Shown one piece after another: positions 10,472 through 13,277 of a stretch of DNA of 64,000 nt. Source of the DNA: Streptomyces deccanensis (GTDB lineage Bacteria; Actinomycetota; Actinomycetes; Streptomycetales; Streptomycetaceae); assembly GCF_022385335.1 (NCBI RefSeq), contig NZ_CP092431.1, positions 2,914,001 to 2,978,000 of the forward strand, written 5' to 3'. The notes beneath the pieces were generated by a model that ran no database searches, was not told the origin of the DNA, and saw nothing but the letters and a program-made list of their open reading frames with translations. Within the stretch, counting starts at the first letter, position 1, and the number at the start of each line of letters is the position of its first letter. Made by a program: the position numbers and the translations under genes.

Positions 10472-10486
10472 GGCGCCACGGGCGCC
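10472..10486 (-). terminator. Short hairpin at the end of the subtilase gene
   Basis: GGCGCC, a 3-nt loop (ACG) and GGCGCC overlap the last base of the subtilase stop codon. The stem is only 6 bp and there is no T-run, so terminator function is uncertain. Confidence 0.35.
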
Positions 10487-11361
10487 TAGGCCCGGCTTCG
10501 GATGCCGCCCCCGTCGCGGAGTGCCGTGTACGCGGACCACGCGTCCAGCAGCGGAGGGGTCACCGAGCCTCGTCGGCCGGGGCCATGGGTGAGCGCGTAG
10601 CGTACGGCCGCCGGGGTAGCCCGGGGGAACGCCGAGCGCAGCAGGGCGACCGTGCCCGTGACGAAGGGCGCCGCGGCGCTCGTGCCGCTCAGGACGAGGG
10701 GGCGGCCGTCGGTGACCGGGCCCGGGACGCGGTCGCCGGGGGCGCCGACGCCGTTGCGGCCGACGGACCTCCCGAGGTTGGACTGGGGCATGGGGTGCCC
10801 GGCGCGGTCGTACGCGGTCACGGGGACGACCCACGGGTGGTCGGTGAGGACGGAGGAGCCCAACCTGCCCTGGTTACCGGCGGCGACCACCAGGATCACC
10901 CCCCGGGCGGCGGCGTGGTCGAGGGCCTCCTCCAGCGCGTGGTCTCGGATCCCGGAGGGCGCCGGCTGGGCCATGCTCAGGTTCACGACATGGGCGCCCG
11001 CGTCGACGATCTCCGTGAGCGCCCGGGCCAGTTCCCCGGTCCGTACGCCGGACAGGCAGGTCGCGGGGCCGCCGTCGGCGGGACGGTCCGTGAAGAGGGG
11101 CCGTGACAGCAGGGTGCAGCGGGGGGCGACGCCCCCATCGGCGACGAGGATCCCGGCCACGGCGGTGCCGTGCGCGCAGCAGACGTCGGTGCGGCGGCAG
11201 TTTCCCGTGTCGGTGGCCGGCCCCAGTTCCCGCACCGCGCGGGCCGCGAAGGCGGGGTGGTTCGGGGCGACGCGGCCGTCGATCACACCGATGACGATCT
11301 CGGGCCGGCCCGAGGTGCGGGCCATGAGTGGCGGAAGGCGCACCAGTTCCAACGGGTCCAT
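10486..11361 (-). CDS. Cytoplasmic S8 subtilisin-like protease of PatA/PatG type
   Basis: A 291-aa serine protease with an intact triad: D28 (VIGVIDGRV), H64 (CCAHGTAVAG) and S228 (LSGTSAAAPF), plus oxyanion N163 (AAGNQG). It has no signal peptide or propeptide and starts MDPLELVRLPPLMARTSG, which resembles the N-termini I recall of cyanobactin proteases PatA/PatG, where the catalytic domain also starts at once and acts inside the cell. Cysteines at 55, 61 and 62, before the His, are unusual. The ATG at 11361 follows GGAGAGGGG; the longer reading adds only Arg-rich sequence. It is the last gene of a same-strand set with a PatG C-terminal-like protein and three short peptides, so its likely job is processing those peptides. 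That is inference. Confidence 0.85.
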   Translation of the reverse strand: MDPLELVRLPPLMARTSGRPEIVIGVIDGRVAPNHPAFAARAVRELGPATDTGNCRRTDVCCAHGTAVAGILVADGGVAPRCTLLSRPLFTDRPADGGPATCLSGVRTGELARALTEIVDAGAHVVNLSMAQPAPSGIRDHALEEALDHAAARGVILVVAAGNQGRLGSSVLTDHPWVVPVTAYDRAGHPMPQSNLGRSVGRNGVGAPGDRVPGPVTDGRPLVLSGTSAAAPFVTGTVALLRSAFPRATPAAVRYALTHGPGRRGSVTPPLLDAWSAYTALRDGGGIRSRA

Positions 11362-11542
11362 GGCACGCCCCTCTCCGCAGCCGTCCGACGGGACGACCGG
11401 ACTCACTCGCGCACGGGCTCGGGCGGACCGCAGGCGCCGAGGCACTCAGCAGCGCAACGGTCCAGACCGTCAACCGCCTCGTAGGGGGGCACGTCCCGGC
11501 GGGCGAGCGGGACGGAAGCCGCCGGGACACATCCGGGGAGGG

Positions 11543-11734
11543 TCATGTGGGCTCATACGGGCCGTAGCAGTTCTCCGCGATGCACTCCCGCACGCAGGCG
11601 GCGGGGTTCCAGGCGCGCCTGCACTGCATCCGGCACACCGGCCCTAGCTCCTCCTCACAGGTGATGAACTGGGGCACGACCCGGTCACCGGCCGGGGCGG
11701 GCGGTTCCGTCGTGGTGAATCCTGGCAGGCTCAT
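11543..11734 (-). CDS. Six-cysteine peptide B (candidate precursor), IPGF-type leader
   Basis: A 63-aa peptide starting MSLPGFTTT. Cysteines at 26, 34, 38, 47, 51 and 56 give the spacing C-x7-C-x3-C-x8-C-x3-C-x4-C. The core TCEEELGPVCR then CRRAxxPxACVRxC is nearly identical to the next peptide upstream, while the segment between leader and core differs. GAGAGGTGA lies before the ATG. No signal peptide or membrane segment. Paired Cx3C motifs are those of small helical hairpins (alpha-hairpinin-like), so a disulfide-linked hairpin is plausible. Gene order and the shared motif suggest it is a substrate of the adjacent protease. I recognise no named family. Confidence 0.75.
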   Translation of the reverse strand: MSLPGFTTTEPPAPAGDRVVPQFITCEEELGPVCRMQCRRAWNPAACVRECIAENCYGPYEPT

Positions 11735-11740
11735 GTCGGG

Positions 11741-11935
11741 TCACCTCTCCCACTTCTCCTCGCAGAGCTTCGCCAGGCACTTCCGCACACACGCGCCGGG
11801 ATCGTGCGCACGGCGGCAGCGGTGGCGGCAGACCGGCCCCAGTTCCTCCTCGCAGGTGAACTGCTGGGGAACCATCAGGTCACCGGCGCGCGCTCCGGTT
11901 GCCGTCGGTCCGACGGCGAATCCGGGGATACGCAT
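11741..11935 (-). CDS. Six-cysteine peptide A (candidate precursor), IPGF-type leader
   Basis: A 64-aa paralogue of peptide B, 6 bp upstream of it. It begins MRIPGFAVG, and cysteines at 28, 36, 40, 49, 53 and 58 have exactly the same spacing. The conserved half begins FTCEEELGPVCR and the C-terminus is charged (CEEKWER). GAAGGG just before the ATG is the likely ribosome binding site. The N-terminal RIPGFA is also found in the third short protein of this cluster. The pair looks like a recent duplication whose leader and Cys framework are constrained while the linker drifts, as expected of precursor peptides. No known bacteriocin motif is seen. Confidence 0.75.
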   Translation of the reverse strand: MRIPGFAVGPTATGARAGDLMVPQQFTCEEELGPVCRHRCRRAHDPGACVRKCLAKLCEEKWER

Positions 11936-11983
11936 GTCCCTTCGCCTCTTTCCTCTCTCGTCGCTCTCGTGTCCATGTGTCGC

Positions 11984-12964
11984 TCACCGGGTGTAGTAGC
12001 GCTGGATGGGGGTCACCCGGAAGGGGAAGAGCCCCGCGAGACCCACGCGGACGAACCACTTCTCGGTGACGTTGGTCTGGCGGTGGGTGTACGAGAACAC
12101 GACCGTGATGACGGTCTGCGCCCCCACGCTGAGCCGGGAGAAGTCGGCCTCCACCGCGGACAGGACGAAGCCTTCGGAGCGCATCTCACTGGTCTTGCGG
12201 TAGATCTCCTGCTCCCGCACCGTCAGGTAGTTGAGGGCCCGATGGGCCGGGTCGAGGCCCGCGTTGTTGTTGAGCTGGAGCACCCGGTCGAGGACTTCCC
12301 TGGCGGTCTTCTCGAACCCCTTGCGGGAGGTGTCCGCGGGGCGGTCGATCGCCTCGATCAGCTCCCTGCTGTCGAAGGCCCAGATCTTCTCGACATGGAC
12401 GACCGGCACGGAGAGTCCCTGACACGCGCCCGGCGGCACGAGGGGGCCGAGGGTCCCGACGACGACGGCGAGGTCACGGTAGTCCCGGACCGGGCGCAGG
12501 GCCTCCACGAGGTCGTCCAGGTCGGTGGGGTCCACGGGTTCCAGGATGTAGGTGTCGACGCCCTGCACGGACAGGACGTAGCACATCTGCCGGGCCAGGT
12601 AGCGGTTCTCGGGGGCGGACAGGACGCGGTGGACGGCGTCGGCGTCACTGGCGTCACGGGCTCCTCCGGCGCCGGCCGCCTGCAAGAACTCGTGCTGGAC
12701 GGAGAGATCGGGAAAGACGGCGCGCACCTGGCCGAGGACGTACACATAACCGGGGGTCGTGTCGGCGCCGTGCCCCGCTCCTCCGCCGCCGTGGGAGCCG
12801 GACTCGGCGCACCCGCAACAGGCCTGCGTGACACCGGACTCGACGGGCAGCGGGTGGGCGTCGTCCGGATCGAACGACGCGGGGGGCGCGGCGGGCACGG
12901 TCCCGGTCCGGGTCTCCGGCGAGGGGCTCGCGTCTGTGGCGCCGTCTGTGATCTCGGGGTCCAT
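11984..12964 (-). CDS. Stand-alone PatG C-terminal-domain-like protein
   Basis: A 326-aa protein. Residues 1-70 are acidic, Pro/Gly-rich and contain a C49-C50-G-C52 cluster. From about residue 72 (GYVYVLGQVRAVFPDL) to the end (FPFRVTPIQRYYTR) it follows a pattern I recall from the C-terminal part of PatG-family cyanobactin maturation proteins, including NRYLARQMCYVLSVQGVDTY, ALNYLTVREQEIY and FSYTHRQTNVTEKWFVR. The function of that region is not firmly known. In PatG it is fused to a protease, whereas here the protease is a separate gene. The ATG at 12964 has GAGGAG 10 bp upstream; the longer frame adds Arg-rich sequence and was rejected. Family membership rests on memory, not a search. Confidence 0.72.
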   Translation of the reverse strand: MDPEITDGATDASPSPETRTGTVPAAPPASFDPDDAHPLPVESGVTQACCGCAESGSHGGGGAGHGADTTPGYVYVLGQVRAVFPDLSVQHEFLQAAGAGGARDASDADAVHRVLSAPENRYLARQMCYVLSVQGVDTYILEPVDPTDLDDLVEALRPVRDYRDLAVVVGTLGPLVPPGACQGLSVPVVHVEKIWAFDSRELIEAIDRPADTSRKGFEKTAREVLDRVLQLNNNAGLDPAHRALNYLTVREQEIYRKTSEMRSEGFVLSAVEADFSRLSVGAQTVITVVFSYTHRQTNVTEKWFVRVGLAGLFPFRVTPIQRYYTR

Positions 12965-13058
12965 GGGTCGGTCACTCCTCACGCGGGCTCTGGAGGAATC
13001 CCGGTCCGGTGCGGACACGCACCGGACCGCCTGGTCGTGCTCGCGCCGTGCACGGTGC

Positions 13059-13277
13059 TCAGCGTTCGCGCCCGCCACCGATCGTCATCCACTGGTTCAA
13101 CGCCTCGGCCCGGCGTCCGCAGCCGCCGCAGGGCCGGATCCCCATCGCGGTGGTCATCCGGGCGACGGCGTCGCCCAGTCCGATCTCCGCGTCGTCGTGG
13201 GCGAAGCCGGGGATACGGACGCGGTGGCGGGACTTGCCGTGACGGGGCTCCCGGTCGCTCGTTGCACCGTCAACCAT
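13059..13277 (-). CDS. Short RIPGFA/PCGGC protein, first gene of the peptide cluster
   Basis: A 72-aa protein with R-I-P-G-F-A at residues 21-26, the same motif that begins peptide A, followed by GLGDAVARMTTAMGIRPC then GGCGRRAEALNQWM, giving a C-x2-C pair. It ends in IGGGRER. The ATG at 13277 is weakly supported (GGGATG upstream); a GTG three codons earlier is possible. There is no nearer start to RIPGFA because the preceding Val codon is GTC. It may be a third precursor, or an accessory that shares the recognition motif. No named family is recognised. Confidence 0.65.
   Translation of the reverse strand: MVDGATSDREPRHGKSRHRVRIPGFAHDDAEIGLGDAVARMTTAMGIRPCGGCGRRAEALNQWMTIGGGRER

Follow-up and report, generated by a model that had tools for sequence, protein, structure and literature searches.

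A split PatA/PatG-type protease cassette with PGF-motif proteins in Streptomyces deccanensis looks like an undescribed peptide-maturation system

The PatG-DUF domain, the C-terminal part of PatG (PDB 4uvq; Pfam PatG_D and PatG_C), has had a structure since 2014 but is not known to have an assigned function (PMC4259220). In the pathways of NisP and the class III lanthipeptides, a conserved leader is removed by a subtilase of the S8 family, according to PMC10885120. We analysed a 64,000-nucleotide stretch of the Streptomyces deccanensis genome (contig NZ_CP092431.1, positions 2,914,001 to 2,978,000; "the window") that contains a PatG-DUF-like protein standing alone, beside an S8 protease and short proteins that share a Pro-Gly-Phe (PGF) motif. 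This cassette looks like an undescribed peptide-maturation system, and the matches listed from searches of open-licence PMC papers include no description of such a cassette. Its features, in window coordinates, are as follows.

13059..13277, minus strand: 72-amino-acid PGF/CGGC protein, with a low-confidence start, RVRIPGF, then GLGD...GIRPCGGC..RAEALN
11984..12964, minus strand: 326-amino-acid stand-alone PatG_D+PatG_C protein (PatG-DUF-like; PatG_CD), with a low-confidence VTQACCGC tail and a folded domain at 70-326
11741..11935, minus strand: candidate precursor peptide 1, 64 amino acids, leader MRIPGF, junction MVPQ, tail with six Cys
11543..11734, minus strand: candidate precursor peptide 2, 63 amino acids, leader MSLPGF, junction VVPQ, tail with six Cys
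11403..11546, minus strand: 47-amino-acid open reading frame (MTLPGC...), probably a decayed third precursor
10486..11361, minus strand: 291-amino-acid PatA-like S8 protease, catalytic domain from its start (Asp28, His64, Ser228)

The cassette compared with cyanobactin proteases

The 326-residue protein was recognised by both PatG profiles, PF18065 (112.8 bits, cut-off 25.9) and PF18047 (83.1 bits, cut-off 27), and its predicted structure matched the PatG-DUF fold, so that the resemblance to the C-terminal part of PatG proposed in the original prediction survived the profile test. It differs from the PatG domain in standing alone and in carrying a low-confidence tail with Cys residues. The S8 and DUF genes cover separate parts of a single model for the cyanobactin PatA/PatG protease, TIGR03895: the S8 protease scored 101.5 bits over model positions 1-180, the DUF protein 13.2 bits (E 0.028) over 328-549, and the cut-off of 421.05 bits was not reached. 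In the window S8 and DUF are separate reading frames and not the single polypeptide that this model describes.

The protease is identified as an S8 subtilase by its Asp/His/Ser triad; it has neither a signal sequence nor room for a propeptide of its own, and its score against the type VII secretion mycosin model TIGR03921 (122.7 bits) lies under the cut-off of 278.75. The D28/H64/S228 numbering proposed earlier is correct for a start at 11361. A GTG upstream would give a protein of 319 residues (10486-11445) with the triad at 56/92/256, and is the less likely start because the probable decayed precursor occupies 11403-11546. Among 77 aligned S8 proteases, 74 have the triad and the remaining three are gapped at Asp and His. 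The spacing between Asp and His is 36 in the window protease and in most of these 74 rows (range 15-61, the 61 in one split S8), as compared with 32-35 in 13 of 13 PatA-type rows, and 32-52 in other S8 proteases of this genome; the PatG-type rows, measurable in two of 10, gave 71 and 75. In the PatG-type macrocyclase a long insertion between the catalytic Asp and His has a role in macrocyclisation. The window protease has PatA-like spacing without that insertion; we therefore reject a macrocyclase reading, and the macrocyclisation suggested in the original prediction is less well supported than the rest of its proposal of a split PatA/PatG-type pair with PGF peptides.

All 28 sampled split S8 proteases formed one clade (support 100/100), with 23 PatA/PatG-type proteases as its sister (100/99) and both apart from 15 other S8 proteases of this genome (100/97), in a tree with a midpoint root and a narrow outgroup. 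The window-type proteases are therefore in the same wider clade as PatA but outside the PatA/PatG clade itself.

Cyanobactin clusters pair a PatE-type precursor with a YcaO gene; this cassette has PGF-leader, Cys-rich precursors in place of PatE, and no heterocyclase nearby. Both YcaO genes of this genome are about 1 Mb from the cassette, and no YcaO match was found in 5 of 8 tested genomes (some of them incomplete) with the cassette or its PatG_CD, which makes YcaO heterocyclisation an unlikely part of the chemistry. Some cyanobactins have no heterocycles. As a control we used 16 cyanobacterial regions that carry PatA/PatG-type genes; they come from the 22 genomes, out of 244, in which PatG_C occurs. 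Profiles for the CGGC and precursor proteins matched nothing in any of the 16, and hence the small PGF proteins accompany only the split form in this sample. PatE-like precursors, as judged by a regular expression, occur in eight of these regions, and the name cyanobactin is not secure for the other eight. One region (L168) also has its PatA-type S8 and DUF in separate reading frames, and another (L156) has a 25-residue frame with a chance MFPGF.

Distribution and association of the cassette genes

The PatG_CD alignment was scanned against 84,980 species genomes, and we examined the best 80 of the 96 relatives obtained; many are metagenome bins, and the counts below treat related loci without phylogenetic weighting. 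By record taxonomy the relatives fall in 13 phylum-level groups, including Actinomycetota (28), Pseudomonadota (21), Acidobacteriota (10) and Nitrospirota (6). Within the genus the spread is patchy (22 of 392 genomes match), and the PatG_C domain occurs in only 3 of 296 sampled genomes of the phylum. In their source records some relatives are called "cyanobactin maturation protease PatG family protein", which is likely misleading.

In 76 of the 80 loci an S8 reading frame is found no more than 1,105 bp from the PatG_CD gene, and the two are separate reading frames in all 76 as in the window. The S8 gene is upstream in 65, an order that matches the domain order of PatA-DUF proteins, and downstream in 11 (the window's clade and three Kitasatospora-type loci). 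CGGC-type proteins were found in 67 of the 80 loci and PGF-leader peptides in 74; one or the other is present in 80 of 81 loci when the window is counted. Of the 67 loci with a CGGC gene, 50 have this gene between S8 and PatG_CD, and 11 have it before PatG_CD with S8 after it. The split cassette thus differs from PatA in consisting of two genes, commonly with a PGF/CGGC gene between them, and in its own S8 clade.

The small-protein profiles were built from the same loci in which they were counted, and the association was therefore also tested starting from CGGC proteins. That search gave 17 genomes, 4 from a sample of 148 Nitrospirota and 13 from a sample of 100 Nitrosomonadaceae, and all 17 have PatG_CD within 1.5 kb; S8 is there in 16 and leader peptides in 17. 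This set overlaps the first one, in that L027 and L031 belong to genomes G718 and G720, and further repeats are probable. Four plasmid records with a CGGC protein gave PatG_CD in 4, S8 in 3 and leader peptides in 3. The PGF motif occurs near the PatG_CD gene more than by chance: among small same-strand reading frames of the 81 loci, [ILMVF]PG[FY] was found 184 times per 116,155 residues within 2.5 kb of the gene and 10 times per 131,497 residues beyond 3.5 kb. The neighbourhood survey, which had been named in advance as a check that could overturn the proposal of a single unit, found S8, PatG_CD and PGF proteins together in many phyla.

A crude clustering of reading frames of at least 90 amino acids, up to 8 kb around the loci, detected no third conserved neighbour. 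The clusters present in at least 8 loci, beyond S8 and PatG_CD, were minus-strand shadow frames or frames over the precursor region, and all others occurred in at most 5 loci. The PatG_CD tree required 22 phylum changes against a minimum of 12, which suggests transfer, although 33 of its 78 inner branches are weak. One scan of viral contigs with one pattern found no virus-borne relative of the cassette. On a plasmid of Streptomyces sp. NBC_01568 (L187) an S8-CGGC-PatG_CD cassette is flanked by a recombinase gene and a Tn3-family transposase, and it is possibly mobile. Two loci have partial second PatG_CD-like frames downstream of the main one (L082 9579-10034 and L091 9121-9225), and in two genomes of the same genus (G004:C2:3260388-3260753, L003; G106:C2:47327-47689, L117) the PatG_C match lies within open frames of 842-843 residues, perhaps a fused form.

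Precursor peptides, CGGC protein and DUF tail

To characterise the precursors, 135 peptides from 60 loci were retained out of 186 profile-matched frames, 51 having been dropped for lack of a P[GT][FYA] motif or for excessive length; at least 4 of the 135 are too short to be real and a few are evidently chance frames. Nearly all (130) are encoded after PatG_CD. Their leader, with the consensus M-x-[IML]-P-G-F-T-A-E-A-S-L-Y..Y, is nearly free of Cys, and in the window's clade it is shorter and different after PGF. Columns after PGF, which the selection left free, are conserved (A in 105, E in 82, S in 72, L in 73 and Y in 46 peptides), with a second Tyr at +16 in 74 of 134. A P[QAS] junction was found by regular expression in 101 of the 135, a count that leaves out the window's 63-residue peptide because its junction comes too early. 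Cys makes up 18 of 3,470 residues before the junction (0.5%) and 652 of 5,202 after it (12.5%), and the number of Cys is even in 117 of the 135 peptides. Of 123 peptides, 66 have PQ no more than 14 residues ahead of the first tail Cys, where 2,000 shuffles gave a mean of 8.4 and a maximum of 20, and the density of PQ is 74 per 3,682 residues at positions 22-50 as against 10 per 6,001 beyond residue 40. The tails vary widely, their Cys residues are often in short-spaced pairs, and as many as five profile-matched peptides, their tails divergent, occur in a single locus.

The window's two peptides fit this pattern, each with VPQ (MVPQ and VVPQ) followed by six Cys. The 47-residue frame, whose ATG overlaps the stop of the 63-residue gene, has PGC in place of PGF. 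It shares 62 and 66% identity with PGF precursors from two relatives but lacks an internal block of theirs, comprising the junction and the first Cys block; it is probably a decayed third precursor. No further convincing precursor was found elsewhere in this genome using the Streptomyces-type alignment (third match E 0.03). Ten precursors and ten CGGC proteins, together with the window's three, gave nothing over cut-off in Pfam or NCBIfam; sub-threshold matches included DUF4787 to the 63-residue peptide (E 0.0079), Clo7bot to a peptide of locus L024 (E 0.0088) and a few weaker ones.

The original prediction had listed five same-strand genes, all of which are present on the minus strand, and had treated the three short proteins as substrates recognised through a common I/L-P-G-F motif. 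The motif is indeed in all three (IPGF, IPGF and LPGF), and a substrate role is probable for the 64- and 63-residue peptides. The 72-residue CGGC protein is more likely a fixed component of the machinery, judging from its near-fixed sequence across phyla, its gene position before PatG_CD and its lack of a variable Cys-rich tail. Its family consensus, VRLPGF..EEIGLGDVIKRAT...GIKPCGGC..RAAALNRW, hardly varies, and P23, F25, G33, G35, C50, C53, R56 and N61 are invariant in 26 of 26 aligned proteins from different phyla. That it is a third precursor was considered and thought unlikely given this fixed sequence.

The CGGC protein matched nothing in Pfam, NCBIfam or PADLOC, and a Foldseek comparison with PDB and viral models, using a model with a predicted local distance difference test score (pLDDT) of only 71.9, found no known fold at E ≤ 0.001. 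A search with it returned at least 7,700 of 7,999 scored candidates at E ≤ 0.001, and the 120 matches listed had no Pfam domain. Its C-terminal half matches PHROG 32048, of unknown function, with which it shares GLGD..K..T...GI.PC..C..R...LN; the PGF part lies outside the match. One member, gp35 of Nonlabens phage P12024S (L189 1965-2324), is encoded near a terminase gene and has the GLGD..C..C..LN half. In some Nitrosospira-type loci (L031, L034, and L206 and L207 of genome G1141) the CGGC gene is split into two frames, and the S8, PatG_CD and leader-peptide frames are open.

The stand-alone DUF proteins have conserved residues, R121, C128, C181, R250 and R306, that 17 cyanobacterial rows do not share; at C128 and C181, each Cys in 80 of 81 rows, the cyanobacterial rows have Ile in 17 of 17 and Phe in 14 of 17. 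Their N-terminal tails carry CxC or CxxC in 71 of 81 loci, and in 34 of these 71 PQ stands just ahead of the Cys pair (shuffle mean 7.8, maximum 18, with no correction for kinship). Across whole tails PQ occurs only 45 times against 27.8 expected from composition; what is enriched is its position ahead of the Cys pair. This arrangement resembles the precursor junction, and the S8 protease may therefore cut the DUF protein as well.

A proposed mechanism and its rivals

As in other pathways for ribosomally synthesised and post-translationally modified peptides (RiPPs), the cassette combines a conserved leader, a variable core and a candidate leader peptidase in one cluster. We think it probable that the whole is a RiPP-like peptide-maturation system built on a split PatA. 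Short precursors would be made in the cytosol, each with a conserved, nearly Cys-free leader and a variable tail rich in Cys, in many cases with a [VI]-x-P-[QA] junction between them. The stand-alone PatG-DUF protein would bind the PGF leader and present the junction to the S8 protease, which would cut at or near PQ and release the Cys-rich peptide. The CGGC protein would dock on the DUF protein through the same PGF motif, as a fixed subunit; it may then oxidise the cargo or load it with metal, aided by the tail motif CxC/CxxC and the two conserved Cys residues of the DUF protein. What the sequences themselves show is the association of the genes, the layout of leader, junction and tail, the triad and the homology of the DUF protein; the partner that binds PGF, the site of cutting, the disulfides or metal, the cytosolic setting and the destiny of the product are inferred. 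The proposed cutting of a conserved leader by an S8 protease would be analogous to NisP and the class III lanthipeptide proteases, from whose systems the cassette differs in having no lanthipeptide or other modification gene among its conserved neighbours. We file it as RiPP-like processing of a known kind, by PatA-type enzymes, in which the leader and the accessory protein are new and nothing points to cyanobactin chemistry.

Several observations weigh against this scheme. In patellamide biosynthesis the homologous PatG-DUF did not bind the precursor PatE by nuclear magnetic resonance, as reported in PMC4259220. The S8 protease is missing, even by profile, at 4 of the 80 loci (L055, L070, L090 and L092). 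The crude clustering found no conserved exporter or modification enzyme nearby, which leaves the fate of the product unexplained. PGF counts among the 135 peptides are fixed by their selection, 34 of them lack a junction by regular expression (in some it comes too early, and a few are chance frames), and the motif is not strict, with PRF, PAF, PNF, PSF or PTF in a few CGGC proteins and leaders. PatE has no PGF-type tag, and its failure to bind is what would be expected if PatG-DUF reads such a tag, though this is only a suggestion. A bolder version, which we regard as doubtful, is that the cassette constitutes a new RiPP-like class in 13 phylum-level groups, in which the PatG-DUF fold recognises PGF as a general tag for docking, with the CGGC protein, the DUF CxC/CxxC tail and C128/C181 acting as a cytosolic thiol relay that oxidises the Cys-rich cargo before the S8 protease cuts at PQ.

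The same Cys-rich parts could instead handle metal. The tails, the CGGC protein and the CxC/CxxC motif would then form a cytosolic thiol-metal system for copper or zinc, with leader and junction working as above but with the protease trimming or turning over the peptides and a chelator, not a disulfide-rich peptide, as the product. A protease without signal, the lack of a conserved exporter within up to 8 kb, the short-spaced Cys pairs, the 71 DUF tails and a good share of hosts that are, by record titles, nitrifiers, methanotrophs and soil actinomycetes are in keeping with this idea; the high variability of the tails, an even Cys number that suggests pairing, and the absence of a conserved metal-transport or regulator gene from the clustering make it improbable. 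The protease's lack of room for a propeptide, and a CGGC sequence as fixed as that of a subunit or inhibitor, would also suit PGF proteins that are trans-acting, pro-region-like inhibitors or activators of the S8/DUF pair, whose real substrate lies elsewhere. Up to five peptides with divergent tails per locus are a better fit to cargo, as is the enrichment of PQ ahead of the Cys tail, and we consider such regulators quite improbable.

It is very unlikely that the cassette is a mobile module for conflict or defence that employs a subtilase, in spite of its patchy spread in the genus, its plasmid copies (including the one flanked by recombinase and Tn3-family transposase genes) and matches of the protease to the PADLOC subtilase model (6.8e-20) and to IetS (0.0026): those matches span the S8 domain common to the superfamily, the 326-, 72- and 64-residue proteins match nothing in PADLOC, and the peptides resemble precursors. 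To a genuine cyanobactin pathway, with macrocyclised and heterocyclised products, we give almost no credence; its S8 and DUF components are homologous, but the precursors are of the PGF and not the PatE type, the protease is outside the PatA/PatG clade with a PatA-like Asp-His spacing, and YcaO is distant here and unmatched in most of the genomes tested, some of which are incomplete.

If maturation by a split PatA is correct, with recognition, as we infer, through PGF, the reading of a PGF tag would explain what the PatG-DUF domain does, and the cassette would be a large new source of natural Cys-rich peptides that lack annotation. Because the domain stands alone here, beside a protease and PGF proteins, its role is directly testable with purified proteins.

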